From Gaertneriomyces semiglobifer (taxonomy: Eukaryota; Chytridiomycota; Chytridiomycetes; Spizellomycetales; Spizellomycetaceae), in NCBI GenBank assembly GCA_025558075.1, contig JAHLKF010000007.1, positions 860,568 to 924,567 of the forward strand: a stretch of 64,000 bases of DNA, read 5' to 3'. A model generated the notes under the pieces. The model ran no database searches. It saw only the letters and a list, made by a program, of their open reading frames with translations, and was not told the DNA's origin. Positions 26,739 to 48,157 of the stretch are shown here, piece after piece. Position numbers and translations under genes: made by a program. Numbering within the stretch: the stretch's first letter is position 1; every line of letters begins with the position of its first letter.

Positions 26739-26788
26739 TGACAAAGTGCGCTGCATAAGCTGTACAGCTTATGCAGTGCACTGTGTCA
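26739..26788. repeat. Left tip palindrome (50 bp)
   Basis: A nearly perfect 50-bp inverted repeat centred between 26763 and 26764. It has two mismatching positions, whereas the right-hand copy is perfect. It starts TGACA and ends TGTCA. It could fold into a cruciform or hairpin end. Confidence 0.9.
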
Positions 26789-26789
26789 A

Positions 26790-26935
26790 TGGGGACTTAT
26801 TGATAGAACTTATTATTGTCGACTTATTAAGGTTGACTTATCGATATGACTTATTTGGAGGACTTATGAGGATACAAGTTAATTAAGGACTTATGAGGAT
26901 AAGAATTACTTAATGACTTATTGAGAGAAATAAGT
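26790..26935. repeat. Left subterminal ACTTAT array
   Basis: About nine copies of (G/A)ACTTAT in mostly one orientation, ending with the inverse AATAAGTC. Irregular spacing of 10-25 bp. Mirrored in the right repeat (47960-48105). Typical of subterminal transposase or recombinase binding sites. Confidence 0.75.
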
Positions 26936-27352
26936 CTCGCCGGTCATGATTGCCATTGACGATCATTGTCAATCAGTACTATCATCACCATCATCACAAT
27001 CATCACCATCATCACCATCATTGCCAATCATTGCCACCAACCAGTTTCCCTTCAGCATCAGTTTAACTTGCGTCCAAGTCGCAGCCGCAAATGCGACCAA
27101 CACCGGCGCAACTTCAAAACCGTTGCAACTTCAAAACAGCCCTAAGTTTGCCGCGAGAATCAACGTGATTCTGTGTCCCCCTTCATACAACCCCATACGA
27201 ATCTTCCCAGTTCCCAGTCTCCTTCTGGTTGCTTATTCATACAAATCTACAAATGTGCCACAAAAATCGTTCTCGCAAGCGTTTTGGTACGTTTGGCACA
27301 TATGCACATTTGCAAAAACCTTAGTACATTTTTAAAATACTTTTTTTTTTAT

Positions 27353-27371
27353 GATCTCGTCCAACGAGATC
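27353..27371. repeat. Poly-T-flanked hairpin in left TIR
   Basis: GATCTCGT, a 3-nt CCA loop, and ACGAGATC, flanked on both sides by runs of 8-10 T. The same structure occurs in the internal repeat (37403-37421) and the right TIR (47525-47543). Confidence 0.8.
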
Positions 27372-27633
27372 TACTTTTTTTTTCATTTCTGAAAATTATT
27401 AACTGAAATTAAATGTGCCAAATGTGCCAAATGTGCCAAAACGCTTACCGGAACCTTTTTTATGGCACATTTACTTTTATTATAAAATATAAATGTACCA
27501 ATCCTCTTACGACAACACTTTTAACTGGCACATTTGTGGCACATTTCCCAAAAGCCTTCAAAGCTTTCCTCTAAAGTTTCCTTTTTTTGTTTTTGATGTC
27601 AAATGACTTGCGCGGGCTGCCTCTCTTCACTCA

Positions 27634-27794
27634 TCACCGCCCGTACGTCTCCATGTGTCCCATGAAGTCGTTCGTTCCTTGCGCTATATCCTTCACACGT
27701 TTAAGACCCAAATCACTAAACTCCGTTGCCCGACGCGATGCTTCTCGCACCTTGTTGTTAAACAGCGCATTCCCTTGGACTCCTGCATTGGCGT
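27634..27794 (-). pseudogene. Headless copy of the right-end gene
   Basis: Mirror image of the last 53 codons of the gene at 46964-47262 (NAGVQGNALFNNK ... FMGHMETYGR). The upstream half is absent because the TIR ends inside the gene at codon 46-47. It has no start and is presumably silent. Confidence 0.85.
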
Positions 27795-27842
27795 TTTCAA
27801 GGTTTCCTTTTTTTATGTCTGTCCATTGATAAAAGCTGGAAA

Positions 27843-28616
27843 ATGATCTGGGAAGGAAGTAGGTTCTTTGGTGAGTATGATGAGATAGTCCACGAACGAT
27901 GCTTCGAATTATGCTCTCAAATAGCCAATGAACATAGGAACGCTTTCCTCAATGATCTCGAAGAACTGAGTATCCTTCCGTCCAAAAGTGTTCAATTATT
28001 GAAAGCAATGGTAGACCTTGACACATTGGAAGAAAAATACAAGGAATACATGCGTCTAGATGATACACCTCGTTCAACAAAAAAGAAGATTGTAACAACA
28101 AAGAAGAAAGTTGTGACGAAGAAGAAATAGTTACAACAAAGAATGTTCCCGCCGGAAGTACTTCTGATGATCCTGAATGAGCAGCTTAGTCTCACGAAAC
28201 ATGACTGGTTCCATACACGACGACAGGCTGTAGAGACACAACTCAGGTTTCCAGTGAGATACTTTATTTCGCAACGCATCCGTAACAATCCACCGGGGAT
28301 GGATATCGAACTGCAATACAGAGTTGGAAGGCATCACCAATGGGACATCTTTCATCATAGTGAATTTGATGGAACCATCATACGTTACTCATTTATTACT
28401 CAAAAGATATTTCGAAAGAGGCGTGTTTCGATTTGGTATGAAGAAGACATACGTTTGAACATGATTAGAGAACAATTTAGAAATGTTACAATGAACATTG
28501 TAGATATGGACAGAATAGAGCCGCATCTACTCACAGTTACATGCTTAGAAAAAAATGAGGATTGGAAGTGGTTATTAGCAATGTATCATAAAAGGACACC
28601 ACGTAAAAAGAAGTGA
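27843..28616 (+). CDS. Element 1 unknown protein with in-frame TAG
   Basis: Two open stretches lie in the same frame: 27843-28127 (95 aa, MIWEGSRFFGEYDE..., ending in a Lys-rich TKKK run) and 28131-28616, separated only by TAG at 28128-28130. The second part has its own ATG at 28143 (MFPPEVLLMILNEQ). The two may be separate genes, a gene with a premature stop, or a readthrough pair. The C-terminal part is basic and ends HKRTPRKKK. No family recognised. It is the first gene inside the left TIR and is transcribed away from it. Confidence 0.55.
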
Positions 28617-28679
28617 TTTTCTTCAAAACTTCAATGTTATCAAGCTTTCTCACTTTCTGAATTTGTAACCCAACAGAAT

Positions 28680-31600
28680 CTACAAAGGTGCAGTACGATA
28701 GATGATCAACCGAGATGCCGAACTACCTGTTATACCGCCAGAGGAACTTGCAGATGTGAAGCGAAGTATCATTTTGGTATCTGCTTCTACGACACGGCAT
28801 ATTGATGAACCTGTTACTCTCTGACCGGCGACCATACTGTGTTTTCTTACATGATAACCATCTTCATAATATACGGTGCTACCGGGCACCATAAATCCAA
28901 AGTAACTATTGACAGATCCGGAACCTGACTGAAACACATCAAGATCGAATTCAACCTTGTATATTCCCGGTAACTTAATGACGATATCTTGCGAATTCGT
29001 TGAACAAGTAATTGTATCGCTTTCCATACCAAACAATGGAGTCCATTTGGTTATTAACTGGTAGGCAGTACCATTCACAGAGAACGATTGACTGGAATGT
29101 AATTGGAACATTCCAAACGATGGGGTGGACAAACTGAGACCATTCACTTTTGCCGCAGGCGCTTCTATGATCTTCTGTGTGGCATTGGATCCATAAAACG
29201 TCAGTTTCCCAATATGGGCATATGTTGAAGAAATAAGGTTACGGACAATGAACCTAAAGACTTTGAATTTCTTCAATATGTAGTTGTTGATGGGCACATA
29301 CCGATCTACTGAAGTTGAGTTCTGATAGATTGTATAGGTCATTGTTCCAGAGGAGATCTCTGTCCAATTGCTACGGTCATCCGATCCACATATGGTGTAA
29401 TTCTTAGGAAACATTGGCATCTCGGGTGTTCTAGCAGCAAATGAAAAGGCACTAATCGCAATGGCTTCAGGCATCTCAAGTTCAACCCATTCACCTTTGA
29501 TATTAGAACCATCTACGACAGTGATAACTGTACCTTGATACATATTCTGTTCGCCTCCTGAGTATGTTGATGAAGACCAAAAAGAATCATTAATTCCCAA
29601 CTCGTTGGAAAACGCTTTCCATCCTGCAGACGTTCCATTCAAGTTACTGCTGGCATTTGCAATATACCCTTGCGTAGTTACACCGGTCAACTGTATCTGA
29701 GGATATTTGATAGGGTCGACAATGTCATCTTTGAATGCGACATCGTTGTCTATTAAAAGATCGCCACTGATCTTGTTACATACAAGTTCATCTGCAATCA
29801 CCTGCTTTGCTTCAACGGCGCCCTTAACCTCCATCGAGACCGGTGTGCCATTGAAAACCAAACGACCGACATAGCAATATGCTGAATTAAGTCCGTTAAT
29901 GGATCGTATAATCAACCTGTATATCTTGAATGTTTTTGTTGTTGTTGGTGTTGGTACATTGACTGTTTGCGTTTGACCATTAATCCAAGATGAAATAGTC
30001 GATGAAAGAACGTGAATGAAGGTGGATCCATCGTTCGAACCGACTAGGGTGAAATCCCTCACATTTCTTATATAGGTAGAACTTCCAGATATATCGAACG
30101 ATGTTAGGAAAATGCCAACTGGCATCTGAATCTGAACCCATTCTCCAGCAATGTTTGTCGAATTCACAATGGTTGTTTGTGAGCCTGCATACAGACCGGT
30201 AGTGACATCGTAACCTGATGTTGCTTCTGAATACCATCCTCCCCCGGCAGCAAAAACCGCATATGGTTGATACGTGGATGAGAAGATAGAACTTGTACTC
30301 GCAACATAAGTTCCATTCCCATATGCTTGGTTTGAGATGATAGTGGAATTTGACGTCATGCTTAGCGGAGGGAATGCAACCACATCAGAAGTTGTTCCAA
30401 CTGAAAGCCTTTCAGATACATCTATAGCGCCATGTTCATCTATAACGATACCCTTTTCCCTTTGACTGAGAACCCTGAGAGCACCGTTGTAGTTCATCAG
30501 GGTCGCTGTATTTCCACCACCAAAGGCAGTGCGTGCCTGCGCGTTGACATTAATATAGAGACCGGTGCCACCTCCGGCTCTAATTTGAAGAGTTGTTCTC
30601 GAATTAGAACCTGTTGATGAGTTGACAAGAGAGTGCAGATACGAACCGTTAACATTCATTGTTCCATTGAAGGACCCTGCAAACGAAATGTTTCCAGTGG
30701 TCGTAACCGAATCAACGCTGACTGCTGGGTTCAACGACACCGTGTTATTACTAAACAACAGACCACTTCCGTAAGTAACGGACGCTGGAGCATTAATTAC
30801 ATCAGTCGCATAATCGACCTTGTCCTTGTAAGCAAGAACCTTGAGATTACTTTTCACCTCGAAGGCACTGAGATCTGATCCTAAACTAATAGTGTTAATA
30901 GCCGCCGTGGCATTGGAAATGGCGACTACACCTGAAGAGGTCAAACCAGTCAATGTCCCTACACTGGTGATTCCTGAGCTGTTCACTGATAACGTACTCC
31001 CTGTTTTCGTGATACCAGTACCCGCGGTGAGATACGACAATCCATCAACATAGGACTTTGTTGTGAGACTTTGAAGGTCACTTGTTTTCGCAAAGGATGT
31101 ATGATCAAAACTTAGGGATAATGTATTATTTGTTTTGGTCAATCCATTTCCGACAACATTTAGATAGTTGCACGATTCCACATACGGACGCATGAATGAA
31201 TCCCAAGTCTCGTAGAGCATGGCAAGGTTAGGCACTTGCAACATGCTTTCATGGTAAACGCCTAGATATCCTGATTGCAGGTGCCTGTCGTGTGTCAAGA
31301 GGACACTGGAAAAGTCCTCTTCATCTGTACGCCGGTGAATGATATCTATGTGCCCGTGAGGGACAATAGGCAAATTATTTTCATCGTATTCGAGAACTGT
31401 TCTTGGGACACCATCAACTTCAATTGTAGGCAATCGACTCCATACCACCCCCCACCCTTCTCTGAACCACGACTCCTGATTGGTATGATCTTTACCTTTC
31501 CATATAGGTGGAATGGGGTCAAGGCAAGGTCCATTATTACCGTCTGTTCGTCCCGTAGACCTCAACGTATCACCCCCAGGAGGTGGTGGAGGTGGATTGG

Positions 31601-33545
31601 GTGGCAATATTGGAGGATCGACAGGAGGAGCCGTCTCCCCGATGTCGGTTCCTCCACCATTGTCCTTTAATATAGAATCATCGGACTTTAGAATAGGATC
31701 TATAGGAGCCGTGCCTTTGCTTTTTGCCATCATAGGGTTGGTTGCAGTTATCACTGTTGTACCCGAAATAGGATCTGATGTAACGAGCAACCCCCCCACG
31801 CCGATGATATTTCTTACCACCGGTAAACTGGTATAGGCTGTTACCACACTGTCGAGACCAGTCAGCTGGGCACCTAATGATAGAGCAGTAGCCTGAAGAG
31901 AACCTACATCGGCTTTCATAACAGCCTGCGCGACTTGCACTCCAGTCGCCACCGTATTGACCGTATCTACGACACCAGTTAACCATGTCACGTCCGCTGC
32001 CAAGGAAATGAGGTCTCCTTGAATCTGATTCTTTGCATTGTCCAATGCAGTGATGTTGGATCGGTTGGTGTTGATACCACTCTCAAAGAGATCGCTCTTT
32101 GTCTCTTGCTGCTGGACTCGACTCTCGACAGCATCGATCTTATTATCCAAACGATTGTCCTCATTCTTCAAAGCGTTAATTTCCGTATCCGTCTTTTCGT
32201 TCAAATCATCCACCTTGTCGTCGAGGTTGTCAATTTGACTCTGAGGATTCACTACGGACACTTCATAACTGAAAGGATTCGTTTGGACAACAGTGACATT
32301 ACTAGAGCCGGAAATAACAGTCTTTCCAATGACTTGGTCACCTTCTCGTCGCAAAGAACCGCTATACGTTAACTTGGACGAAATCACGTTGTCAATGATA
32401 CTGATGGATTCTCCTGCCATATATGGATCCACACTCAACTTGTTATTTACCGCCTTGACCGAAGTACCATCAACGAGGTTGCTGACATTGACACAAAGAC
32501 GATTGGTTTCATCAATGGACAAAGAATTATCATGATTCACCTTGATCAATTTCCGTCCATTTGCAACGGCACCGATATCCACTGCTGAACCAGCCTCACT
32601 TTGCATCAACTGGTGTAGGTACGCCGCGGTAGGTACTTGGGTAGGTTCGGTAATATTGTAGTCAACATTGCTATGTATCGTCGGAGCAGACAATATGTTG
32701 AGGGTGTTGTTGTATGTGAAATTTGCATCAGAGTCAAAACCCGATAGACCACTATGGAAGGGAATTCGGTATAAGCCGTGCGACCTCAACGCCAATCGAC
32801 CTCCAGTTTGTTGAAAATCATTGCTGTCCACTTGCAACTTCACAAGCATACCATTCTGCAAATAGTCTTCTAAGTCACCAGGAAGATCAATGTCCAAAAA
32901 ATCAGGCATATCAGGTCCTATACCACCAATATCGTTAGCTGTGTAAACTCTAATAGCTCCCGCACCTTTTGCTATCTCTTTGGTATCAACTGTCAATTGG
33001 TCATCCTCAACAAGAAGTGGTTCTTTGAATTTCAATCGTACAACATGATCATCTTTGACGAGAGGAATTTCATACGTATCCTGTTCTACACTTAAATATC
33101 CATCCTTTATTTGTAAAGAGTCGTCGGTGAATAAAGTTAGTCCCTGCTCACTCGTACCCAATGGCTGAGCGTGCTTCAGCTCGATATACGCCACGTTATC
33201 CTCCTTCTCGATCCACAGAGGAAAACGAGCCGCTCTTTTCTCCTTCAGAGAGATACCGGATTCAGCGGACAGCTCGAAATCCTCCTCGTTGTACACCAGC
33301 TCAATGGCTGCGGTCCCATCTTCAGTCGTTGAAGACAAAGGTTGAACACATTCTATCTTGTTGACCTCTAATCGACCATTCTTATTAGAGATCTCTTCAA
33401 TGCGTGCCTCTTTGAAACCTTCTAGATTCACATTGTCCCCTTTACCAATCAACCCCTTCCCTGTAACATACGCCGACACAAGGTTCGTGTTATCGAGTAT
33501 CCGCAGCCCGCTACTGATTCGGCTGTTCAGTCCCGTACCTGACAT
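28680..33545 (-). CDS. Giant fiber-like structural/adhesion protein
   Basis: 1,621 aa, the largest gene of element 1, intact. N-terminal 400 residues have short repeats with PL and LTV/LQI steps reminiscent of adenovirus fiber-shaft beta-spirals (PLLVEDDQLTVD). A coiled coil follows at about 430-485 (VDDLNEKTDTEINALK). A proline hinge (PPPPPPGGD) lies near 650. Two F5/8C (discoidin)-like domains lie at about 1068-1228 and 1292-1442, each with GEWVxIxMP / GSxDxS / yRxIxR-type motifs. The last 150 residues form a C1q/TNF-like beta head ending IIYRTAPL. The plan fits a trimeric receptor-binding spike on the virion. It is transcribed opposite to the ATPase, together with the penton gene (67-bp gap). 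Confidence 0.75.
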   Translation of the reverse strand: MSGTGLNSRISSGLRILDNTNLVSAYVTGKGLIGKGDNVNLEGFKEARIEEISNKNGRLEVNKIECVQPLSSTTEDGTAAIELVYNEEDFELSAESGISLKEKRAARFPLWIEKEDNVAYIELKHAQPLGTSEQGLTLFTDDSLQIKDGYLSVEQDTYEIPLVKDDHVVRLKFKEPLLVEDDQLTVDTKEIAKGAGAIRVYTANDIGGIGPDMPDFLDIDLPGDLEDYLQNGMLVKLQVDSNDFQQTGGRLALRSHGLYRIPFHSGLSGFDSDANFTYNNTLNILSAPTIHSNVDYNITEPTQVPTAAYLHQLMQSEAGSAVDIGAVANGRKLIKVNHDNSLSIDETNRLCVNVSNLVDGTSVKAVNNKLSVDPYMAGESISIIDNVISSKLTYSGSLRREGDQVIGKTVISGSSNVTVVQTNPFSYEVSVVNPQSQIDNLDDKVDDLNEKTDTEINALKNEDNRLDNKIDAVESRVQQQETKSDLFESGINTNRSNITALDNAKNQIQGDLISLAADVTWLTGVVDTVNTVATGVQVAQAVMKADVGSLQATALSLGAQLTGLDSVVTAYTSLPVVRNIIGVGGLLVTSDPISGTTVITATNPMMAKSKGTAPIDPILKSDDSILKDNGGGTDIGETAPPVDPPILPPNPPPPPPGGDTLRSTGRTDGNNGPCLDPIPPIWKGKDHTNQESWFREGWGVVWSRLPTIEVDGVPRTVLEYDENNLPIVPHGHIDIIHRRTDEEDFSSVLLTHDRHLQSGYLGVYHESMLQVPNLAMLYETWDSFMRPYVESCNYLNVVGNGLTKTNNTLSLSFDHTSFAKTSDLQSLTTKSYVDGLSYLTAGTGITKTGSTLSVNSSGITSVGTLTGLTSSGVVAISNATAAINTISLGSDLSAFEVKSNLKVLAYKDKVDYATDVINAPASVTYGSGLLFSNNTVSLNPAVSVDSVTTTGNISFAGSFNGTMNVNGSYLHSLVNSSTGSNSRTTLQIRAGGGTGLYINVNAQARTAFGGGNTATLMNYNGALRVLSQREKGIVIDEHGAIDVSERLSVGTTSDVVAFPPLSMTSNSTIISNQAYGNGTYVASTSSIFSSTYQPYAVFAAGGGWYSEATSGYDVTTGLYAGSQTTIVNSTNIAGEWVQIQMPVGIFLTSFDISGSSTYIRNVRDFTLVGSNDGSTFIHVLSSTISSWINGQTQTVNVPTPTTTKTFKIYRLIIRSINGLNSAYCYVGRLVFNGTPVSMEVKGAVEAKQVIADELVCNKISGDLLIDNDVAFKDDIVDPIKYPQIQLTGVTTQGYIANASSNLNGTSAGWKAFSNELGINDSFWSSSTYSGGEQNMYQGTVITVVDGSNIKGEWVELEMPEAIAISAFSFAARTPEMPMFPKNYTICGSDDRSNWTEISSGTMTYTIYQNSTSVDRYVPINNYILKKFKVFRFIVRNLISSTYAHIGKLTFYGSNATQKIIEAPAAKVNGLSLSTPSFGMFQLHSSQSFSVNGTAYQLITKWTPLFGMESDTITCSTNSQDIVIKLPGIYKVEFDLDVFQSGSGSVNSYFGFMVPGSTVYYEDGYHVRKHSMVAGQRVTGSSICRVVEADTKMILRFTSASSSGGITGSSASRLIIYRTAPL

Positions 33546-33612
33546 GATGGTTCGATTTCCCTTTTACTTAAGCTTTTGGAAAAAACAACAAACAAAAATC
33601 CTTCTTCAATAT

Positions 33613-34359
33613 CTAGACTTGCAATAAATCTGCTTGGTCATCATAGATCCCAAATGTAACCACCATAGGTGTTGATGTCTTTATCTTTTGCATCGAAAGC
33701 GAGTCCACCAGCTGTAGGTCTATGGAGGACAGAGTCATCTGGACTTGGAAGAACTTGTCCGACGGGTTGTTATAAATGATCACGTCCCCATGATTGTCCA
33801 ACGGAATGCACGCCAAAATGTTTTGTTCAGATCCTTCTGAGCCATTTGGATAGACAATTCCACGGTTGAGTTGAAGTGATCTACTGGTCAATAGTACTGG
33901 AGCAGACGCGGACATGTTGACTTGATTGGTAAATGTATGCGATGTAGCGAACCCACTGTCTGCCGTCTTTGAAATCCCAAGTATGTTGTAAGCGGTCGTT
34001 CCTCTGTTTCCTGGTAGGACCTTGAAAGCGGTTGGAGAAGTAATCGTAAGGCGCCGTGTAATATCATCATATGTAACGGTGAATGCTACACCTTCGGACA
34101 CTGCCGTCATGCTAGATGCCAAGGCATCCGTGATATTGATGGCATTATAGTTTCCCGGTGTTATTTTGGCTGTCCTCACCGTCGTCTCTCCATTGAGAGA
34201 GAATGGGATCGCATTGTTCCTTGCATCCACACCATCCCAACTCTGTAGGAGAGACACCGAGATCAACTTGATCGCATAACACTGAACGGCTGGCGCAATG
34301 TTGAAACTCGAGTTCTCGCTCGCAAGGGTTGCCGTGTTGAGGACAATCTCGTGGTACAT
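33613..34359 (-). CDS. Penton-type minor capsid protein (single jelly roll)
   Basis: 248 aa. The order of motifs matches penton-like proteins of polinton-like viruses and virophages: an N-terminal strand with FNIAPAVQCYAIKLISVSL, the PGNYNAINITDAL step, a central strand pair YDDITRRLTITSP, NILGI, TSRSLQLNRG, and the late DHGDVIIYNNPSDKFFQVQMTL followed by IDLQLVDSL. In the virion this class sits at the fivefold vertices. It shares a short bidirectional promoter (about 50 bp) with the packaging ATPase. Confidence 0.75.
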   Translation of the reverse strand: MYHEIVLNTATLASENSSFNIAPAVQCYAIKLISVSLLQSWDGVDARNNAIPFSLNGETTVRTAKITPGNYNAINITDALASSMTAVSEGVAFTVTYDDITRRLTITSPTAFKVLPGNRGTTAYNILGISKTADSGFATSHTFTNQVNMSASAPVLLTSRSLQLNRGIVYPNGSEGSEQNILACIPLDNHGDVIIYNNPSDKFFQVQMTLSSIDLQLVDSLSMQKIKTSTPMVVTFGIYDDQADLLQV

Positions 34360-34409: not shown

Positions 34410-35144
34410 ATGGAAATAAAACGTATAAAGGTTCCCAGAGAAAACCAGATAAAGTATATTGACAAGACACCACCCGATATCCCCCTGAAGAAATTTTTTT
34501 GTCTTTCCATATGTGGTTCATCGCGGTCAGGGAAAACAACATGCATGGTCAATCTGATTGAGAATCTGTCAAACGCTTACACGTCCGTGATAATCTTCAC
34601 ACCTTCGATCCAAGATGACAAGTGGGCATCGTTGAAGAAAAAAGACAATGTGTTTATCGGCGATCTGATCAGTAACCATGTTCTTCATAATTTGTTCGAA
34701 AGGCAGAAGGCTTTGTATAACAAGAAGAAAGAGGAAAACTCCATGCTCATCGCAATAGATGATTTTGGGATCCTCGCTAGGCAATCGGGTGAGGATATTT
34801 CGAAGCCGTTGAAGAAGGAACAGGTAACGTCCTCAGGCATAAAACAGATGCTGGACATACTGTACAGTTGTGGCAGGCACTTTGGGGTGTCCCTTATGGC
34901 AAGTTTTCACGACGTCCTGCAACTAACGCCATTGCAAAGGGTGAACAACACGGCTGTGATCCTCTACCGTCTCAACCGGAAGCAATACGAGAAAATCGCG
35001 CCCGAGCTCCGTTGTCATCTGTCCGAACGAGACTTCATTGATCTGATGGACGAGCATACAATACAACCGTTTTCCTTTGTCCTTGTCAATCTCAAAGCAC
35101 CGCGTAATGAGGACGTCTTCGTGTTGGGCGGACCGAAAGCGTAA
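34410..35144 (+). CDS. DNA-packaging ATPase (FtsK/HerA, A32-like)
   Basis: 244 aa P-loop motor that pumps the genome into capsids. Walker A is GSSRSGKTT at residues 36-44; Walker B is MLIAIDDFG at 112-120. The sensor-like region SGIKQMLDILYSCGRHFGVSLMA and SFHDVLQLTPLQRVN follow, as in this family. Intact. Presence next to capsid genes supports a virion-forming element. Confidence 0.9.
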   Translation: MEIKRIKVPRENQIKYIDKTPPDIPLKKFFCLSICGSSRSGKTTCMVNLIENLSNAYTSVIIFTPSIQDDKWASLKKKDNVFIGDLISNHVLHNLFERQKALYNKKKEENSMLIAIDDFGILARQSGEDISKPLKKEQVTSSGIKQMLDILYSCGRHFGVSLMASFHDVLQLTPLQRVNNTAVILYRLNRKQYEKIAPELRCHLSERDFIDLMDEHTIQPFSFVLVNLKAPRNEDVFVLGGPKA

Positions 35145-37179: not shown

Positions 37180-37281
37180 TTTGAGTTTGATTTGTATTAT
37201 CTACCATACAGACACATAACAAAAGATGTTGAACAATGTAAACTGTGTTCACCGTCCGCGTTTACTTTGAAGCTTTTGCAT

Positions 37282-37619
37282 GCTTATTCATACAAATCTA
37301 CAAATGTGCCACAAAAATCGTTCTCGCAAGTGTTTTGGCACGTCTGGCACATGTAACATTTGTGTTTTCGGTTAGTAAATTTTTAAAATACTTTTTTTTT
37401 ATGATCTCGTCCAACGAGATCTACTTTTTTTTCCATTTTTGAAAATTATTAATCGAAATTAAATGTGCCAAATGTGCCAAATGTGCCAAAACGCTTACCG
37501 GAATGATGTTTGTGGCACATTTACTTTTATAATAATATATAAATGTACCAATCCTCTTACGACAATACTTTTAACTGGCACATTTGTGGTACATTTCCCG
37601 AAAGCCTTCAAAGCTTTCC
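37282..37619 (+). repeat. Internal diverged copy of the TIR inner segment
   Basis: 338 bp that align with 27231-27569 of the left TIR in the same orientation, at roughly nine in ten positions. Both carry the poly-T hairpin, three AAATGTGCC iterons and TGGCACATTTGTGG. It lies between the HTH gene and the helicase 3' end. It may be a relict end of an older element, or a functional site (origin or terminator) reused inside. Confidence 0.85.
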
Positions 37620-37679: not shown

Positions 37680-40267
37680 TCAAGTTGGAACTCGTGCCAC
37701 AGTCAAATTAATCTGTGTCCCATTCCGCCGGTTTGTCGACCGTGGAGCAATCTGAAGCCGTTTCTTGATGAGTTTTCCAAAACCCTTAAGGCATACATCG
37801 CCGTTGGCTTTTCGTCCACCGTATCCCTGTTCAATGAACTCTTTATACTTTGAAAACAAGACTTCGGTGGTGATTTCATATGTTTTGCCCTGTTCAAAAT
37901 ACTGAGCCTCCCGCTTTCCTTCCCTGTTGACAAGATTTTGGTAAATGATGTTGCCTTCCAGTAGATCATCAGCAAACAGTTCCGAAGGTGTTTTTGCCCA
38001 TACCTTCATGTCTTCCTTTTCCTGAGTATCAGGAACCTTGCGAGGATTGAAACCGGTCAAGTCAATGCTCATCAAATACGTGTAGTAATGATCAGCCACC
38101 TCCTGCGTCAGACTCAACGCCAACTTTTTAAAGTACTCTTCATTTCCGCATTGGCAACTTGATGATTCCTTGACAAAGTACCGGCGGTCACTCTCTTCTA
38201 CCCGGACACAATTGTCTTGGTTGGATAGAAACACAAAATTCATAAAGGCATCAATCATCACAGAATCTACGCCTTTTTTCTCCAACTTCTGCCATACTTG
38301 GGTGATGAGGGACTTGAGTTTATTGTTGGTTTTGTGCCCACCCGCAAAAGCAACTTCATCACCCAACACAAAAATCTTTCAGCGTGCAATGAGGTAAACT
38401 GTCCTGTCAAAACATCCAGATCATTCAAATAAAGATAATGTTCACGACCAATGATGAACTTGCCAAAGAATTCCCAAAAGACGTTCTTGCCAATTCCTTG
38501 CTTGCTAAAGTTTACAATCGCTGTTTCCGTCTTCACAAAAGGTTTCTGGAGAATGGACGCCATCCACTTTTCTGTAAAGTCCCCATGTTCTTCGACGCCG
38601 GCATTCAGAATAGTGTATATATGATGACGAATCGGTGCAATGAGTTCTTCAGAATACTCTTCAAGAAGCGTCGCTTGAAACCCACGAAAGAGGTTCAGTT
38701 TAGAATGCGGCTTGTCTCCGATGAACGAGGGGTCCATGACAATGTTTTTGAGCGTCATCATATAGGGATGCTTGTCCCAAAGGCTGAAGAGTGAAACTGT
38801 TGTCTTTACCCTGCTACGCTTATCCGGCACTTGAATGTTGTAGTGATCCTTGGCAGCTCGCGTTTCGTTTTTCTTCCTAATGATCCACTGCTCACTTGGA
38901 GTGTCGCGGTAGCAGTACATGACTGAAGTCTCGTTGGTGACCTTGGCAAAGTAGTGGTTCAGGTAACCAATGAGATCGGCAGGTCTCTTATCAAAGATCT
39001 CTTGAGCGCGTTGAACGGACAGCTCTTTGTCTGCATCCACGTGAATGTCATTCGGCTTATTGACATATTCAGCCCATGGATCTTCTTCCTTTACCGGCGT
39101 CTCCTTGTTGATTTTGTCCAGACGGAGGCTTTTGTAGAAATCCTTCTTCACAATCATCGGCTTGATTGCAAGAGGAATATCCATCCCGGTGTGTTGCTTG
39201 ACATACTGTTGGATGTCGTGAAGGGTGTTCTCGTCGACGACATGGACAGGATCCCTGCGTGCCTGAAGTCCATCGAATATCAAAACATCCGGAGAAATGT
39301 TGTTTTCCTCCAAATACTGTATGGTCCTTTGAAGTGCTTGATTCTCCAGAGTCTGGACAACGAGACTGAGAAAAGAGCCGGTGCGGTTGGGAGAAATCTT
39401 TTTGTGGCGTAAACTTTGAATGTGTTTCCACAGAGTAGTGTAAAAGGTATCTCCTGCTTGCAACTTGGGAACAAGTGATCCATAGATCGCCTGATGAATG
39501 GCTCTGAAGAATCCGATTTTGGGCTCTACATAGCCCTTCATCAGCATTGAGATGACTTGTTCCTTGTCGATGTTGTACTTTTGGAGAATCATTTGACGGT
39601 TTCCCACATACTGTCCAAGTTCTTTGCATTCAATGCCATACATTTCACATAGATGTGCAAGGATGGTAGGGGCACTGTTCACTTGATCAACATCAACATA
39701 AAAATCGGCGCTGAGAAAGGCACGGACGCTCTTGGGAAATCCTTGCAGTCCTAAATCGGAGCGGGCAAAGAGGCGACCGCTTCCATTGATGGAATACTTG
39801 GAATAAGTGTATTCCACGCGGAACTCATTGGTATTGCCCGTGTAGCAACTTTTCCAATACTCTTTGAGTTGTTTCTTGACTTTGGTGTCAAGATACGGAT
39901 TGCGCAACAACACTTTTAACTTTTCTTCATCACAGAGTTCGATTCTCGATTCAATGGTTGACATCTCTTTATTGTCGACAGGAAATTCAAAGATCTCATT
40001 GTCGTTGATTGATGGCACCACTTCCATCTTGTTGATACCATGGGCAACCTCGCGAACACCAGGAGAGGCACGATGAATTACAGGAGGTTCAGGAGTGGCA
40101 TCCTCAGCAGTGTCGCCATCACTGCACTCGGGTTCCTCCTCGTACTCGTAGTCATCGATCTCTGCCTCGCGCTGTCTCTGGTCTGCCTTTAGATGCCTAT
40201 GTGCCTCCCTCATGAGCTCCGCATCCGCTGCAGCCAGAGCACTTTTCCATTCGAGATCTGAAGACAT
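37680..40267 (-). CDS. TVpol-SF3 helicase replication protein with one frameshift
   Basis: Genome replication enzyme of polinton-like viruses and virophages: a family-A-like polymerase domain joined to a D5-type superfamily 3 helicase. The first frame (38267-40267) holds polymerase motifs DVDQVNSAPTILAHLC with the following QYVGNR, then MLMKGY, and FDGLQARRDP; KPM ends the domain. The helicase follows with Walker A SKQGIGKN. The Walker B strand (VLGDEV) and the rest (KLKSLIT; GNIIYQNLV) are in the next frame (37680-38369). The shift falls in a run of five T (38370-38374 on the plus strand as A) where six would keep the frame. No canonical slippery heptamer is present, so loss of function is likely unless it is a read error. 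Confidence 0.8.
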
Positions 40268-40549: not shown

Positions 40550-41686
40550 ATGGCTGATCATATGGATGTGTGTACCGTTCCCGACGTCGATGGAACTTCC
40601 ACTTGCACCGACGACGATGAAGAACAAGTGACACCTGTGTCCAAGGGCACCACTTTTCCTACCAACAACCGTGAATTTCGCAAAATCGAGACCATCTTCC
40701 GCGAGATCTTTGACAATGCAACCTTTACCAAGTCGGAGCGTCCGAACATCAAGTCTTCTATCGACAAACTTGCCGGAGATCATCTTGAAGTCAATTGTAT
40801 CGGTGATCCGAAACGTTTCGTGAAGCACATTGAAGAAAAGTTCAAGTCTGCCACGCGACACAATGTCAAAAACAAGATCCGGCACGTCCGGGTGCTCCTC
40901 GATGCATCGACACTTGATCAACGTCGTGAAATGCTAAAGATGCCGGATGCAGATGAAGAGGAGGTCAATGATATCTTCAACAGGATCATTCCTGTCTACG
41001 GTAAGAAAACTGATGAGCTCAAGCAGCAAGAGAAGAATGCGAGATTCAAGCAAGCAACACCTCATCAAAGAAGGAACTACATACCATATGAAGAATTATA
41101 TCCTGCCTTGCTGGAGAAATTGGATGAGATCACACCGGAAAATGTACGTACCGTTCACTCACAGATGTTGATCGGTGCCTCTATCTTGTTGGGTGGATCA
41201 AAGATGCGGCGGTTGGATATTGGTGAAACAAAGGTGAAGGATTTTAATGCTAATGTGACACTCTTACTGTCGGACTACACCATTCATATTAAGAAATGCA
41301 ACAAGAGCAAGGAGAAACCTACTGACTATGACAACGATGTGAAAATTGTTATCAAGGATGAAAAGATCTTGGAAAAGTTGATACTCTTGGTTGACACTCG
41401 TGTTGCTGACAGCGACCCTTATCTCTTCAAAAGGGACATGATCAACCAGGCGACCAATGACTATGCACCTGATTGTGCTTGGTTCGGTGTTCGTCTTTCC
41501 AAGACTCTTGAGAGGGAATTCGGTAAGAAATTGACTGTGGGCATGCTACGTACCATTCGCGGTAAGTATCTCTCCAAAACAATGGACAATGGTGATCCAA
41601 GGAAACAAGAAGAGATCGCCGAGATTATGGGTCACGCGTACAAAACTCATCAAGAGCATTATAACATTGAAGGATTGGAAGTCTAG
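40550..41686 (+). CDS. Tyrosine recombinase-like integrase
   Basis: 378 aa. The C-terminal half has the tyrosine-recombinase layout: first Arg in GGSKMRRLDIGETK, box II as LRTIRGKYLS (His of HxxR not evident), MGHAYKTHQ with the second His, and a final Tyr in EHYN eight residues later. The N-terminal half is charged and helical, as expected for a DNA-clamp domain. Virophages and many polinton-like viruses carry such enzymes, but usually instead of a retroviral-type integrase. It ends with TAG (41684-41686), which shows that TAG works as a stop in this element. Confidence 0.7.
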   Translation: MADHMDVCTVPDVDGTSTCTDDDEEQVTPVSKGTTFPTNNREFRKIETIFREIFDNATFTKSERPNIKSSIDKLAGDHLEVNCIGDPKRFVKHIEEKFKSATRHNVKNKIRHVRVLLDASTLDQRREMLKMPDADEEEVNDIFNRIIPVYGKKTDELKQQEKNARFKQATPHQRRNYIPYEELYPALLEKLDEITPENVRTVHSQMLIGASILLGGSKMRRLDIGETKVKDFNANVTLLLSDYTIHIKKCNKSKEKPTDYDNDVKIVIKDEKILEKLILLVDTRVADSDPYLFKRDMINQATNDYAPDCAWFGVRLSKTLEREFGKKLTVGMLRTIRGKYLSKTMDNGDPRKQEEIAEIMGHAYKTHQEHYNIEGLEV

Positions 41687-41704
41687 TTTTGTATAGTCAT
41701 GTAC

Positions 41705-42946
41705 TTAGTGTGTGTTTTCATAATCATATATTTTATCTTGTGCATTGCTCAAGTTCGACACTGGTTCCCACGTGGCTTCTGATCGCGGGTAGCCTCGCCA
41801 TAAGACGAGGTACTCTATTGTACCCTGTCCTCTCGCTTGTCGACGCACCCTTTTATCGAGGATGGTCTCCACTTCAAATTCATCTTCACTCATATCTTTA
41901 TCTTCATCAGCTTCATCCCTTGTAGTAGTACCTCCTTGTGTCCCTACTGGGACAAGTCTTAGCTGGTATGCAGCATAGAGACCAATTTTTCCTGAGAGTC
42001 GGTAGGCATCCATGTAGCCAACATGTTTGCTGGGTATGACGCCAGTGATGGTGAAGATGTCATCGCCGAAATATCCCTGCTTCGATCGCCTGCGGATGTC
42101 AGTGTTCTCAGTCTTCAGTAACCGTACCTTGTCTCCGATAGAGAATTTCGGCAGGACTTTGATGCCCCTTCCCTTTGTCCTCAATGCCAATTGCGATCTG
42201 TATGCACCTTGCAAGTCCTCTTCAATTTGATCAGGCGTCCTTAATTTCTTCCCTGCTCCAAAGGATACAGCGGAGTTAATATTCTCGACAAATTGCGGCA
42301 AAGAACCCACCCAGTCTCTGTTACCCATCTTGATGTCTGCGTAGAGCATTCGTTTCAGTGTTCCATTCATCCTTTCTATGATTCCATTTGTCTGAGGAGA
42401 TCCAGGTTTACTGAAACGCCAAAGGATGTCTTTCTCCTGTGCCCACGTCTGGACGATACCAAGGAACTCTTGTCCATTATCGGATTGGATCGATCGGATC
42501 TCTACGCCATCATCCCGCAATCCTTGCAGAAAATCTCGGACATTCAATTGGTTATTGGCACGGATGGCTTTACTATACAGTCTCTTTGTCAAAATATCAA
42601 CTGCATTCACGACGTACGAGTAGCCATTGTAGCTCACAGCGGAAAGGTTGATAGTATCGATCTGAAGCACGCCCTTTTCGCTGGAAAGGATAGGTCTTAT
42701 GCCGCCCTTGCTCACAATGGGTCTTGTCGTCTTTTGATGGAGTTCTTGCTTCTTCAACCATTCTAATACAGCCCTTTGGCTTCCCATGAAGTCGCTGTAA
42801 CGGCTCTTTGCTAAAAAATACAACCGGTCGTGTCCCATGTATGCCTTCTTGTCATAGTAGAGTTCTTCCAGTCTCTCTTCATCTTCCTTCGAAAGAGTCT
42901 TCCACCTGTTCGTGGATCGATGTCCACCATTGTCATCATCGTCCAT
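41705..42946 (-). CDS. Retroviral-type (rve) DD35E integrase with C-terminal chromodomain
   Basis: 413 aa. The catalytic triad is D97 (QIDTINL), D156 (QSDNGQEF) and E191 (NGIIERMNGTLK), giving exact DD35E spacing. A beta-barrel-like region follows (FSIGDKVRLLK). The last 60 residues are a chromodomain: FEVETILDKRVRR, EYLVLWRGY, TWEPVSNL. Chromodomains steer integrases of Polintons and chromoviral gypsy elements to modified histones. The TG...CA tips and 5-bp duplication of element 1 are what this enzyme class produces. It is convergent with the tyrosine recombinase gene, with only 18 bp between their stops. Confidence 0.93.
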   Translation of the reverse strand: MDDDDNGGHRSTNRWKTLSKEDEERLEELYYDKKAYMGHDRLYFLAKSRYSDFMGSQRAVLEWLKKQELHQKTTRPIVSKGGIRPILSSEKGVLQIDTINLSAVSYNGYSYVVNAVDILTKRLYSKAIRANNQLNVRDFLQGLRDDGVEIRSIQSDNGQEFLGIVQTWAQEKDILWRFSKPGSPQTNGIIERMNGTLKRMLYADIKMGNRDWVGSLPQFVENINSAVSFGAGKKLRTPDQIEEDLQGAYRSQLALRTKGRGIKVLPKFSIGDKVRLLKTENTDIRRRSKQGYFGDDIFTITGVIPSKHVGYMDAYRLSGKIGLYAAYQLRLVPVGTQGGTTTRDEADEDKDMSEDEFEVETILDKRVRRQARGQGTIEYLVLWRGYPRSEATWEPVSNLSNAQDKIYDYENTH

Positions 42947-42981
42947 TATTTTTTAGATCGTTACTAATAAGCACGTTAAAA

Positions 42982-43158: not shown

Positions 43159-43241
43159 AAACAGATACTAATATGATATGTTCGAGAAAGCTTTTGAAAA
43201 TACTAAAAGAAAAACTTCACAACGAATTTCCCTCAAGGAAT

Positions 43242-44483
43242 TTAGATGATCGACGTTGTCAGTCCGAACATCAAGGTACGAACAGTATAGACCGTCGTGA
43301 TCATGCTCACTCGCGTTGACGGAACGTTCGCAGGGTCGTGGTGTAACACAACTCGGAGATTGCCATCCGTGCCGATCAAGTTCAGGCTCGAGCCCATTAT
43401 CTCTTCGTCTTTCGAAGCGAACGAGTGACGAATGGTGAACTGTTGATCATCAAATGTCGTGAAGTCCAGATCTTCAGATTCGTACATCGAGCTATTGGAC
43501 ATACTTAATGCGCCGCTCATCACGGCATCTTCACGAGTAAAGTCTTCCTGAAGGGGAAGCCTCCAACCTCCCAAGGTATACCTATAAGACAAGAGACCGG
43601 CATCGTTGTATACACGTTCCTTATTTCCAGTCGTTGTAGCGTACGAATCATCATTTCGGAACCTGTGACTCAGACCAACCACTCTAGAATTGGTCAACGG
43701 CAGAATAATAGTGTTCATCGATGAACCGCTCAATGGAGATATGATTTGGGTTGCCTGCACGTAGTCCATCTCCAAGTAGTGTCCCTTTTGAATCCCGGCA
43801 TGGGCAGCTGCCAAAAATTCGCTGGAAGGACCGACAACCTCGCAGACGTACCTAACCTCGTCGATGACAAAGTACGCATTCGCTGCATTCTGAAGAGCAT
43901 ACGTTGGAGAGTTCAAAGAGAGAGAGATTTCACAAGAGTTGCCAGTAAGGAGACACAAAGGGATAGGTTGACCGTTCAGGGGATTCAGAGACCCTAGCTG
44001 TAGGTGGTGTCGCACAACGGTTCCTTCATTGGTAGTGTTGAAGAAATCAGTACGACCATATCCTTCGAAATGGCGGAGGTACTTTTTTCGTCCTGTGGTT
44101 TCGAATTGATACGTCTGTGATAGGAGTTCGACATAGTCGTCCAAACTGTCCACGACTTTGCCCCCCAATTTCACCGTTAGTCCCTTGATTACTGACATTC
44201 CCCCTACAGTGTTATTTTGGATGCTCCCATCTGCACCATAAAACCTGACGCGAAAGCTCAGGAAGGACCTCTGGGGCCGCCAGAAGCACGTAGGGTTATC
44301 TACCTTGATCTGAATGAGGTTACCAGGACTTCGAGAATCATATGTCTCTTTCACAGGTCTCACTACGAGAATATTCTCACTAAGGGCGTCGGATGTCATG
44401 CCGAACTGGGACGATTCATAAATCCAGTTCCTGGGAACCATTGGATAGGTCGAGCCCGATACTGATGTATTGACAACAGCCAT
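43242..44483 (-). CDS. Major capsid protein, double-jelly-roll type
   Basis: 413 codons from ATG 44483 (MAVVNTSVSG); the frame runs 11 codons further upstream without an ATG. The pattern matches polinton-like-virus capsid proteins: an N-terminal strand with FWRPQRSFLSFRVRF, GGMSVIKGLTVKLGGKVV, EGYGRTDFFNTT, a middle IPLCLLTGNSCEISLSLNSP closing the first jelly roll, then MDYVQATQIISPL, the long loop with RYTLGGWRLPLQEDF, and a C-terminal strand RVSMITTVYTVRTLMFGL. Size and position in the cluster also fit. No damage seen. Identification rests on pattern, not on an alignment. Confidence 0.7.
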   Translation of the reverse strand: MAVVNTSVSGSTYPMVPRNWIYESSQFGMTSDALSENILVVRPVKETYDSRSPGNLIQIKVDNPTCFWRPQRSFLSFRVRFYGADGSIQNNTVGGMSVIKGLTVKLGGKVVDSLDDYVELLSQTYQFETTGRKKYLRHFEGYGRTDFFNTTNEGTVVRHHLQLGSLNPLNGQPIPLCLLTGNSCEISLSLNSPTYALQNAANAYFVIDEVRYVCEVVGPSSEFLAAAHAGIQKGHYLEMDYVQATQIISPLSGSSMNTIILPLTNSRVVGLSHRFRNDDSYATTTGNKERVYNDAGLLSYRYTLGGWRLPLQEDFTREDAVMSGALSMSNSSMYESEDLDFTTFDDQQFTIRHSFASKDEEIMGSSLNLIGTDGNLRVVLHHDPANVPSTRVSMITTVYTVRTLMFGLTTSII

Positions 44484-44586
44484 TTTTTTCTTGTCCTTGT
44501 TTTTCTTTACTCTCACACGGAGGAAACGCTCAGGGAAAAAATGTATCAGTTAGGTTCTGATACTTGACATATATTTTTTTTTTTCT

Positions 44587-45102
44587 TCACATATACCGGC
44601 TACGTCTAGGGAAGATAGCCAAGTAAGGATTCATTTCAGGTTGTTGTTGAACAACTGGTTGAGGCTGCACCTGTTGTTCGTCTTCACTGCTAGTATCTTC
44701 CATTTTTACATACACTTTCTTCTTCCTCGGTGTCTTTGGTTTCTGAGGAGGAGGAGTGGCTACAGGTGCCGGCGCAGGCACGGGCGCAGGTTCAGGCTTG
44801 GTTTTTACCTGCCTGGGCTTCCTTTTCGCACGCTGCTCTTCCTTGTCTTTAGCAAGCAATGCCTTGGCTTCGGCAATCCTCTGCTGTTCCTTCTTCTTTT
44901 TTTGTTCTTCACTTAGTTGTCGCAGGTTTTCCGTCCGTTGCTTTCGAGCTCTCTCGAAAGCGGCAATCTGAGCAGCAGACCGTGGCTTCTTTACCTTGGG
45001 CTGCTCTTCAGCAGGTACAGAATTTTGTACCATATTTGGTACCGCGTCCGTCTCGGGAACGTTTTCGGTCGTCGGGACAGTGTTTTCCTGAATTTCTGAC
45101 AT
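44587..45102 (-). CDS. Lys/Glu/Pro-rich low-complexity protein
   Basis: 171 aa with a charged helical middle (AAFERARKQRTENLRQLSEEQKKK-like) and an Ala-Pro run (PAPVPAPAPVA), ending NPYLAIFPRRSRYM. It lies upstream of the capsid gene on the same strand (103-bp gap), so it may be a virion or scaffold protein. No family recognised. Confidence 0.55.
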   Translation of the reverse strand: MSEIQENTVPTTENVPETDAVPNMVQNSVPAEEQPKVKKPRSAAQIAAFERARKQRTENLRQLSEEQKKKKEQQRIAEAKALLAKDKEEQRAKRKPRQVKTKPEPAPVPAPAPVATPPPQKPKTPRKKKVYVKMEDTSSEDEQQVQPQPVVQQQPEMNPYLAIFPRRSRYM

Positions 45103-45174
45103 TTTCGTTGGTTGTTTATCTTTAAGCTTTCTAAAAAAAAATTCAAACTTTACAAATTGCAGAAAGAAAAAAAA

Positions 45175-46848
45175 TCACTTTTTCTTCTTGTACCCTTTGT
45201 TACTTCGCGCGTCTGGTTCAGCGTACACAACCTCCTTCCCCTTGTTTCTTCCACTGCGGCGTGGCTGTGGCTCTTCGACAGATGAAGTCGCTATGGGAAT
45301 GATGGAAGAACTTGACGGTGGGAAACCAGGAAGTGTGTAACCAGCATTCGATCGTGCATCTGGTTCCTTCTATGTTGTTTGTTTCCCTTTGTTGCGTTCT
45401 GACCTTCTAGGGACTACAGGGGTCACTGCAGTAGGTGAGATAACAGGAGTTGCAGGTGAGGTTCTTGCGGATCGTGGTCTAGGCGTCCTGGGCGAAGCAC
45501 TTGGAGAGATATGTTCTTGCTTGACGGCTGTGATAGGTGATGTGATGATCCCTTGCCCGGGCTGAGGCGGAACAATGGGACCTCGACTAGGAGTCAACAA
45601 GACAGGTCCGGCAAGCGCTGTTTCAATCTTGAGGTCAGGTTTGTATCTTTTACTTCTTTTGGATGTTACCACTGTGGGGCTGTCGAGATCTCTCTTGATC
45701 GGAATAAACGGTTCAGGTGTCGGAGGTGACTGCGGCGATGCTAGTCTTGGGGAGCGTGGGTATTCGATTCTTAGTTGAACACTGGGGTACATTTGGACCG
45801 GTGATGCACTTGGATAAGTGATCCGTGCCGGCGATGGTGCCTGCATAGGTTCAGGTGTAGCGCTTGGATAGTAGTGAGCATACGGAAGTTGCGGGAGTTG
45901 ATAAGGCGCAGCTATAGAAGGACTCACCGGCTCAGTTACTTGAGGACTTGGTGTCCTACTGCTGCGTCGATGGACAGGACTGATATCCATCGGGTCATGG
46001 TTAGGCACGACACCTTGCAGCTCATCGATAGGAACTCTTTGTTGGAACAATTCAGCCATCGTAGCTGCATCTCGGAATTTCTTCGCTTTTGTCTGTGCCT
46101 CCGCATTCCTCATTTGAGTGTGTGTCGTCTGAGCTCCGGAACTGCTTGATTGGGTATGTGTTTGTGTTGTTGAAGTACGAAAATCCCTGATGCGTGTTCC
46201 ATGCCGTAAAGTACCTTCGGTAGGGGCAACATCCGGTATGATTGGTCCAGGCTGCCCAATGGCGCCAACTTCATCACTTACCTAAACACCGATATCCGTC
46301 ATGTTGATCACAGGATTGCTGGCGAGGATCGTCTTGGATACGTGGGTCGGATTGTCTTGTGTCGGGAAACCAGGAAGATCTCTGACAACGTTGCGGGACG
46401 CGTCCCCAAGGAACTGATTCCTTTGCATGCGGACATATGTCGGTTGATGGAAGACATTTGCGGACCCGTCACCATTATCTTCATACTTGACTGTCCCGCT
46501 CATGTTAACGATACACCCATCCCGTGGAAAAAGGTTTCCGTTGTCCAATTCATCGAAAAATTCTCCTTTCGCCTTGTGGTTCTCCACTGCGATGAATGCT
46601 TCTACGGCATCCTTGGCTACCTTGGAAACATAATCAGGACCGGAGAAACGAGGACCGTTTAGTTCCAGATCCGTTTCTATCTTCTTGACTTGTCCAAATG
46701 AAGGAAACACGAAATCATCATGTGTCCTCCTGTCCTTTGCGACTCCTGGTCTGATTGGACCAAAGTGTGTCCAATCGACAACTACAGTTGGAGCTGCATC
46801 AAGTCGCCTAAACCTAACGGAGAGATCCTCGTCGAAGATGACAGGCAT
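45175..46848 (-). CDS. Element 1 long unknown protein with two in-frame TAG codons
   Basis: Three open stretches sit in one frame: 46285-46848 (MPVIFDEDLSVRFRRL..., 188 aa), 45373-46281 and 45175-45369, divided by TAG at 46282-46284 and 45370-45372 and ended by TGA. The second part has an ATG at 46113, is Pro/Ser-rich and basic, and ends RRSERNKGKQTT. After the second TAG the same motif returns: EPDARSNAGY and then RRSGRNKGKEVVYAEPDARSNKGY-like repeats. In that repeat alignment TAG stands where the other copy has Tyr. I read it as one gene with two premature stops, or two to three genes. No family recognised; the N-terminal part is globular. Confidence 0.5.
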
Positions 46849-46963
46849 ATAGGTTGGTTAATAGAGGAATATTTCTGTGTCTATATATTAAGATAGAAAT
46901 AAAATAACAGCCAGCGAGAAGACGTTGAACAGTAAAAAACTTCAAGTTCAAAGGATCAAAAGA

Positions 46964-47262
46964 CATGGCAAACTTCTTCCGGAATATCAGACAAAGAGCA
47001 GGTGGGTTCTTACGAGCTCTTCCACAGAATGTGACAAAGGCACGTGGATTCCTAACAGCCGTCCAGACGAATGCCGGAAAAGCTGGGGAGACTGATTCAA
47101 CACGCCAATGCAGGAGTCCAAGGGAATGCGCTGTTTAACAACAAGGTGCGAGAAGCATCACGTCGGGCAACGGAGTTTAGTGATTTGGGTCTTAAACGTG
47201 TGAAGGATATAGCGCAAGGAACGAACGACTTCATGGGACACATGGAGACGTACGGGCGGTGA
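46964..47262 (+). CDS. Right-end gene whose 3' half lies in the TIR
   Basis: Starts at ATG 46964 (MANFFRNIRQRAGGFLRAL). A run of four A near 47073-47077 breaks the frame; with one A fewer it continues as LGRLIQHANAGVQGNALFNN to ETYGR (TGA 47260). About 98 aa if joined. Amphipathic, basic, with Ala/Gly, resembling small virion proteins. From 47102 on the sequence is inside the right TIR, and a mirror copy without the 5' half exists at the left end. Confidence 0.55.
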
Positions 47263-47524
47263 TGAGTGAAGAGAGGCAGCCCGCGCAAGTCATTAGACAT
47301 CAAAAACAAAAAAAAGAAACTTTAGAGGAAAGCTTTGAAGGCTTTTGGGAAATGTGCCACAAATGTGCCAGTTAAAAGTGTTGTCGTAAGAGGATTGGTA
47401 CATTTATATTTTATAATAAAAGTAAATGTGCCATAAAAAAGGTTCCGGTAAGCGTTTTGGCACATTTGGCACATTTGGCACATTTAATTTCAGTTAATAA
47501 TTTTCAGAAATGAAAAAAAAAGTA

Positions 47525-47543
47525 GATCTCGTTGGACGAGATC
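47525..47543. repeat. Poly-A/T-flanked hairpin in right TIR
   Basis: Mirror of 27353-27371: GATCTCGT, TGG loop, ACGAGATC. Confidence 0.8.
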
Positions 47544-47959
47544 ATAAAAAAAAAAGTATTTTAAAAATGTACTAAGGTTTTTGCAAATGTGCATATGTGC
47601 CAAACGTACCAAAACGCTTGCGAGAACGATTTTTGTGGCACATTTGTAGATTTGTATGAATAAGCAACCAGAAGGAGACTGGGAACTGGGAAGATTCGTA
47701 TGGGGTTGTATGAAGGGGGACACAGAATCACGTTGATTCTCGCGGCAAACTTAGGGCTGTTTTGAAGTTGCAACGGTTTTGAAGTTGCGCCGGTGTTGGT
47801 CGCATTTGCGGCTGCGACTTGGACGCAAGTTAAACTGATGCTGAAGGGAAACTGGTTGGTGGCAATGATTGGCAATGATGGTGATGATGGTGATGATTGT
47901 GATGATGGTGATGATAGTACTGATTGACAATGATCGTCAATGGCAATCATGACCGGCGA

Positions 47960-48105
47960 GACTTATTTCTCTCAATAAGTCATTAAGTAATTCTTATCCT
48001 CATAAGTCCTTAATTAACTTGTATCCTCATAAGTCCTCCAAATAAGTCATATCGATAAGTCAACCTTAATAAGTCGACAATAATAAGTTCTATCAATAAG
48101 TCCCC
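47960..48105. repeat. Right subterminal ATAAGT array
   Basis: Mirror of the ACTTAT array at 26790-26935. Confidence 0.75.
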
Positions 48106-48107
48106 AT

Positions 48108-48157
48108 TGACACAGTGCGCTGCATAAGCTGTACAGCTTATGCAGCGCACTGTGTCA
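48108..48157. repeat. Right tip palindrome, perfect over 50 bp
   Basis: Every base pairs around the centre between 48132 and 48133; begins TGACACAGTG, ends CACTGTGTCA. The left copy differs at two bases. Confidence 0.95.

Follow-up and report, generated by a model that had tools for sequence, protein, structure and literature searches.

The window analysed here is a 64,000-nucleotide stretch forming the final 64 kb of contig C7 of Gaertneriomyces semiglobifer, a culturable soil chytrid of the Spizellomycetales; genome-wide counts refer to the 20.9 Mb searched. The window carries a 21.4-kb element (26739–48157) bounded by terminal inverted repeats (TIRs) of 1,062 bp that are 99% complementary, and it is a member of a group of Polinton-like mobile elements found in this fungus. 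A first-pass annotation had placed two unrelated enzymes within this TIR-bounded element, and both were recovered: an rve integrase (INT) and a tyrosine recombinase homologue (YR), with gene ends 18 bp apart. Pairing of an rve/chromodomain integrase with a divergent YR was observed in several families of elements across the genome, rather than in one element. We lean slightly towards a two-enzyme cycle, in which INT would insert linear DNA at CpG, and YR would act on terminal palindromes of the element to excise, circularise or resolve it.

INT (41705–42946, minus strand; 413 aa) exceeded the Pfam cut-offs for both Chromo (1.8e-14) and rve (3.3e-10), confirming the claimed chromodomain, which lies at the C terminus. 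A catalytic triad of D97, D156 and E191, together with the rve profile, places it among the rve (DDE) integrases; 34 residues separate D156 and E191, so that the earlier label DD35E holds for the triad and not for the spacing. By comparison with PDB sequences, INT resembles PFV integrase and HP1.

The identity of YR (40550–41686, plus strand; 378 aa; family A, YR-A) was established by way of relatives. Searches of Pfam, PHROG, NCBIfam and PDB sequences returned nothing significant for the window protein (best E-values 0.022, 0.0085, none and 0.06, respectively, all to unrelated or uncharacterised families), and at E up to 1 only two database relatives were found, 92% (G. semiglobifer) and 85% (Gaertneriomyces sp. 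JEL0708) identical. When aligned by hhalign with the YR family of sister elements, a match of 92.6% was obtained (E 4.5e-7, 185 columns). The AlphaFold model of the window protein, built from a four-sequence alignment, is of low confidence (pLDDT 34.3), while the sister-family model is confident (pLDDT 80.6) and matches XerA, XerH, Cre and topoisomerase IB. Its best 50 structure matches comprised only YRs, topoisomerases IB and the phage repressor SroF; a telomere resolvase was not among these 50, which carries no weight against one. The tyrosine recombinase fold shared with Xer, Cre and topoisomerase IB was thus found through the sister-family model, and the annotation's call of a tyrosine recombinase-like protein stands by profile and model, not by any direct library match or by the protein's own model.

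The catalytic residues R-K-xxR-H-Y could also be followed in alignments. R220, R334, H362 and Y371 are conserved across four aligned YR-A sequences, and in a joint alignment the R220, R334 and H362 columns are common to families A, B and C, with a K nearby. The Y371 column is common to A and C; the Tyr invariant in family B sits one residue earlier. The His usually found three residues ahead of the second R in YRs is not conserved here, and two decayed D-type copies (L014, L057) have no first R. Ratios of nonsynonymous to synonymous substitution (dN/dS) of 0.19–0.30 among three copies indicate that YR-A is under purifying selection. In comparisons between YR families, YR-A and YR-B gave no match to each other, YR-B and YR-C a weak link (E 1.5e-4, 52%), and YR-C none to lambda integrase. 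Nothing relevant was found when YR family profiles were compared with PDB sequences or family C members with Pfam, and no relative was returned by scans of viral contigs with YR, INT, YR-C and major capsid protein (MCP) queries or by tblastn against phages. The family C YR (P0003) also has an identical counterpart (100% over 548 aa) in Gaertneriomyces sp. JEL0708, which suggests recent movement or very close strains.

Genome-wide, 27 INT loci were counted after 16 of 43 INT matches had been dropped as short or chromodomain-only. A YR was found within 10 kb of 25 of these 27 loci, 3 of the 25 being only probable. Seven loci (C59, C2, C19, C30, C34, C39 and C47) have one host flank in common and were treated as a single insertion multiplied by duplication or assembly; counted in this way, 19 of 21 INT loci have a YR. 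Identical copies across contigs may be assembly effects. Six of these contigs (C2, C19, C30, C34, C39 and C47) end inside a family B element at equal distance from INT, with the same left host flank. Telomeres were considered for these identical ends and rejected, as no telomere repeat was present in the four ends inspected and the six contigs and C59 have one host flank. Spacing between INT and YR is 25 bp (match ends) in A, 127–138 bp in B (957 bp in a broken copy, C6:649624), approximately 0.8 kb in C and 1.3–7.7 kb in D, E1 and E2. A side comparison of the window and C1 elements gave a synonymous divergence (dS) of 0.16 for YR and 1.03 for INT, a contrast that points to recombination within the element.

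Element ends were fetched for six families and consist of palindromes of 49–57 bp, with one shortened. Each follows a common plan, in which an outer arm, TGWCACAGT, common to all families encloses a family-specific core, and the elements end 5'-TG...CA-3'. In the window element the left palindrome (26739–26788; 50 bp) has an imperfect outer arm, and the right (48108–48157; 50 bp) is perfect. The strict pattern TGNCACAGTGC...GCACTGTGNCA was found at 38 sites in the genome (control 0), a shorter-armed pattern at 30 (control 1) and a relaxed pattern at at least 52 (control 0). Arm symmetry is built into the search pattern; the core, by comparison, is an independent test of palindromy, and over 15 different cores from the strict and shorter-armed sites 204 of 218 position pairs are complementary. 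Palindromic ends were found in families A, B, C, E1 and E2. For family D one end is known (C6:68014), with a changed arm and assigned by nearness to a D integrase, and the C1 copy has a right end cut down to 22 bp. The palindromes are predicted to fold into hairpins of 23–27 bp. A palindromic site of about 50 bp within the replicon, as telomere resolvases use, is therefore present, but its length is odd in families C and E2.

The core is kept within family B and within family C, and its centre AGCTGTACAGCT is kept in A, despite differing replication protein genes (REP); cores of the B element on C35 and the C element on C6 differ despite 94% identical REP. Because the core follows the element or YR family and not REP, it is not the replication protein's site. 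The outer arm and the INTs are common to all families and the core differs as the YRs do, so the simplest assignment would give the arm to INT and the core to YR.

For the insertion signature, 24 boundaries with both flanks were compared, belonging to 17 solitary palindromes and to 7 elements, in one of which the two ends were paired by inference between contigs C19 and C32. Exact 5-bp duplications were found at 15 of the 24, a 4-bp duplication at one and a 6-bp duplication never, and shifted offsets gave 0 of 960. The window element itself is flanked on both sides by ACGAC (26734–26738 and 48158–48162). Elements with one known flank were left out of this test, as were those at C35 and C31:95887, with which the count is 15 of 26. 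In both cases, C35 (L020/L039) and C31 (L040/L041), the host flank on one side is an inverted copy, or near copy, of the other for at least 25 bp, which we read as an assembly artefact or a fold-back event. CpG occupies positions 2–3 or 3–4 of the outer 5-mer at 36 of 39 sites, counting one 5-mer per site and with two C31 flanks that are near copies of each other, compared with 11.6% in host DNA of the window; the sites without it are C9:331768, C33:112420 and C31:146866. A fixed short stagger, combined with TG..CA ends, is characteristic of an rve-type integrase and would not be expected from a YR.

The 17 solitary palindromes, taken from the sites listed, are apparently element-free; 10 have an exact 5-bp duplication, 3 match at 4 of 5 positions and 4 at fewer. 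BLAST of approximately 200–390 bp of flank from six of them against the fetched element pieces returned nothing significant, and the remaining 11 were classed by inspection of at most about 80 bp of flank. Excluded from the set were C40:72523, where one flank resembles an element, C24:45267 and C31:94731, with mutated outer arms, and the relaxed site C6:638591, of which only 15 of 25 pairs are complementary. A palindrome reads the same both ways, which makes the terminal palindromes of an element direct repeats as well as inverted ones; recombination from one to the other would delete the element and leave a solitary palindrome as a scar within the old duplication. No such scar is expected from recombination between the TIR bodies, which are inverted.

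The proposed cycle can be set out as follows. INT, as the way in, would read the arm TGWCACAGT and insert the linear DNA of the element at CpG, with a stagger of 5 bp; this role is well supported. YR, as the way out or the end-processing step, would work on the family-specific palindromic core to join or resolve the two ends, a role for which support is moderate. Joining in the manner of Cre would yield a circle carrying one palindrome; an enzyme resembling a telomere resolvase would make or fuse hairpins at the palindrome. A hairpin-ended genome might then be nicked at the CA boundary to provide a 3' end for INT, with repair giving a full palindrome at each end, as is observed. In either case YR action would leave a solitary palindrome between the old target duplication. 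The annotation had suggested one enzyme for insertion and one for resolving intermediates or for circles; the 5-bp duplications and the terminal and solitary palindromes fit this division, with its YR half the more conjectural. The fuller statement, that the palindromes serve the element's own YR as sites for recombination or telomere resolution, and that YR would release a circle or hairpin-ended linear DNA, leave a solitary palindrome and allow INT to re-insert the DNA at CpG, is put forward tentatively, at a little short of an even chance.

Palindromes of this kind could instead be replication structures, such as self-priming ends or hairpin telomeres, handled by replication and host enzymes, with YR acting elsewhere, for example in separating dimers, and with solitary copies arising when the 50-bp ends recombine through host enzymes or undergo single-strand annealing. 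The predicted 23–27 bp hairpins would suit such a role, as would the failure to find PolB among the open reading frames (ORFs) scanned. So would the odd-length palindromes: their unpaired centre base is A or T at all 12 ends, and both of its orientations are represented in each of the two families, the pattern expected of flip-flop hairpin ends; as a sign of flipping this is weak. The core, however, does not track the replication protein, and YR is kept at nearly every INT locus. Solitary palindromes (17) are moreover about as frequent as distinct INT loci (about 21), despite repeats of just 50 bp or so that lie about 20 kb apart. We regard replication structures as unlikely. Less likely again, in our estimate, is that solitary palindromes are ultra-short non-autonomous elements, two INT ends in inverted arrangement that INT inserted by themselves, and not excision scars. 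Their 5-bp CpG duplications do match those of full elements, and the solitary palindromes at C2, C8, C9, C22 and C31:85672 have one core family for which no full element is present among the sites listed. A retroviral-type integrase would here be using a donor of 45–56 bp, which is very short for such an enzyme, and the cores vary widely among solitary copies.

Several observations weigh against YR acting on the palindromes as proposed. The proposal was drawn from sequence, and solitary palindromes could stem from host recombination between two ends or be tiny INT-mobilised elements. Core, YR, INT and TIR travel together within a family, so that a link of the core to YR is inseparable from one to INT or TIR, and the C and E2 palindromes are of odd length. 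The window YR is a divergent tyrosine recombinase homologue by its sister-family profile, its fold being modelled for that sister family only, and dN/dS of 0.69 between two copies of the family C YR (99% identical) gives no sign of constraint. The three probable pairs all belong to family E2, whose YR is known from its N-terminal part, before the catalytic motifs; it was matched by the joint profile (E 1.8e-5, among seven ORFs) and not significantly by separate family profiles. The annotation had named relatives with one enzyme as evidence against its view, and two INT loci (C49:28184 and C42:47830) did show no YR beside the 25 that did. Conversely, no INT was seen in the same element at four YR loci (C21:328078, C42:2185, C6:659546 and C31:118114). 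Finally, the C35 and C31:95887 elements, both ends of which are known, have inverted rather than duplicated flanks.

The remainder of the window element lies between the left TIR (26739–27800, plus strand) and the right TIR (47096–48157, minus strand). Its insertion site is a Ty3-type gag gene (25954–26886; Retrotrans_gag 5.5e-13). When the host flanks are rejoined, a 311-codon open frame results, but this is no evidence on the insertion because the same frame also continues 310 codons into the element. A segment of approximately 350 bp with AAATGTGCC repeats occurs in both TIRs (27222–27569 and 47327–47674) and once internally (37273–37619, plus strand); three copies are present in the C1 element, and none was found in the C42 copy. 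The internal segment was considered as a YR site and rejected, being confined to the window and C1 elements.

A packaging ATPase had been claimed and was confirmed as A32-type (34410–35144, plus strand; Pox_A32 1.3e-6, above cut-off), as seen in Polinton-like viruses (PLVs). Capsid and penton labels were not confirmed: the MCP (43242–44516, minus strand) is so named by position only, with no match above threshold in Pfam, PDB sequences or IMG/VR, and the penton (33613–34359, minus strand), likewise named by position, matched no profile or PDB entry above threshold. A 1,621-aa protein with F5/8 type C domains (28680–33545, minus strand) might be fibre-like, which is a guess. For the TVpol-helicase of the annotation, the sole match was DUF5906, and the gene is split over two overlapping minus-strand frames, a first fragment at 38267–40267 and a second, with DUF5906, at 37680–38369; this copy of REP looks broken and may be inactive. 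The F5/8 type C protein and the REP fragment are the only ORFs above 600 aa, and no match to PolB was seen among the ORFs scanned, short ones being incompletely covered. The protein-primed PolB of Polintons/Mavericks was accordingly not found in the element, and their rve integrase and TIRs were.

Replication genes have been exchanged among elements. Identity of REP is 94% between the B element on C35 (L020:7930–9999) and the C element on C6 (L030:5442–7865), while their MCP-, penton- and ATPase-position proteins are 24–37% identical (the family C ATPase being taken from C45), INT 70%, and the second MCP-position protein of B 66%; this exchange looks recent. Replication genes of the C59 copy of family B and the C42 copy of family A differ from those of their family mates, and the C45 copy of family C has a different 527-aa gene where REP would be. 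YR, INT and MCP-position genes also group differently by sequence comparison. The annotation's notion of a chimera survives in this broader form, and not as a one-off cross of two designs, given the 25 of 27 INT loci with YR and the two-enzyme virophages already published. Family B elements have two MCP-position genes (L021:1552–2763 and 4993–6237 on C35; also on C19 and C59, partly split), one 49–51% identical to that of the window and the other 66–67% identical to that of family C, possibly a hybrid capsid set.

The questions addressed are how PLVs without PolB process their ends and leave the chromosome, and why a YR should stand beside an integrase. Natural variation yields a candidate DNA site for each enzyme, the conserved outer arm for INT and the family-specific core for YR, and solitary palindromes may be a fossil record of element loss. 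If correct, the proposal would describe a virus-like element that is cut out by YR and pasted in by INT.

Several known systems share parts of this arrangement. Mid-GC EMALEs, mavirus-like virophages of Cafeteria burkhardae, encode a YR besides an rve integrase, and like the present elements are integrated, with TIRs and short target duplications, mostly of 3–5 bp (PMC8547959). Their host is a flagellate and here it is a fungus; no sequence-specific integration was found by the authors for EMALEs, compared with CpG at 36 of 39 sites here, and the word stem "palindrom" is absent from the main text of that paper (PMC8547959). PLVs resemble these elements in size, TIRs, varied replication genes and use of YR or INT for integration (PMC12220804, PMC4642659). 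Among 8,300 PLVs and virophages, rve and YR co-occur in 12, with rve fused to reverse transcriptase each time, in contrast to the free-standing INT gene here (PMC12220804). Polintons/Mavericks share the rve integrase, long TIRs and packaging ATPase, and the 5-bp duplication falls within the 5–6 bp range of mavirus and Polintons (PMC8547959); unlike them, the present elements have palindromic ends and a YR beside INT, and no PolB was found. Telomere resolvases such as those of N15 and TelA are likened here by description: a YR/topoisomerase-IB-like enzyme, a palindrome of similar size (56 bp in phage N15) and a system-specific sequence, hairpin telomere and target sequences differing system by system (PMC13236599, PMC3558466). 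A telomere-resolvase-like mechanism has also been proposed for phaeoviruses at a telRL site (PMC13236599). Unlike in those systems, the palindromes here lie at both ends of an integrated element. In the PLV and virophage literature, judged from titles, opening parts of abstracts and passages among the matches listed, no description of terminal or solitary palindromes in such elements was found. Pairing of an rve integrase with a YR is thus already known from virophages, and, as far as this literature search goes, the palindromic ends and solitary palindromes are what the chytrid elements add to it.

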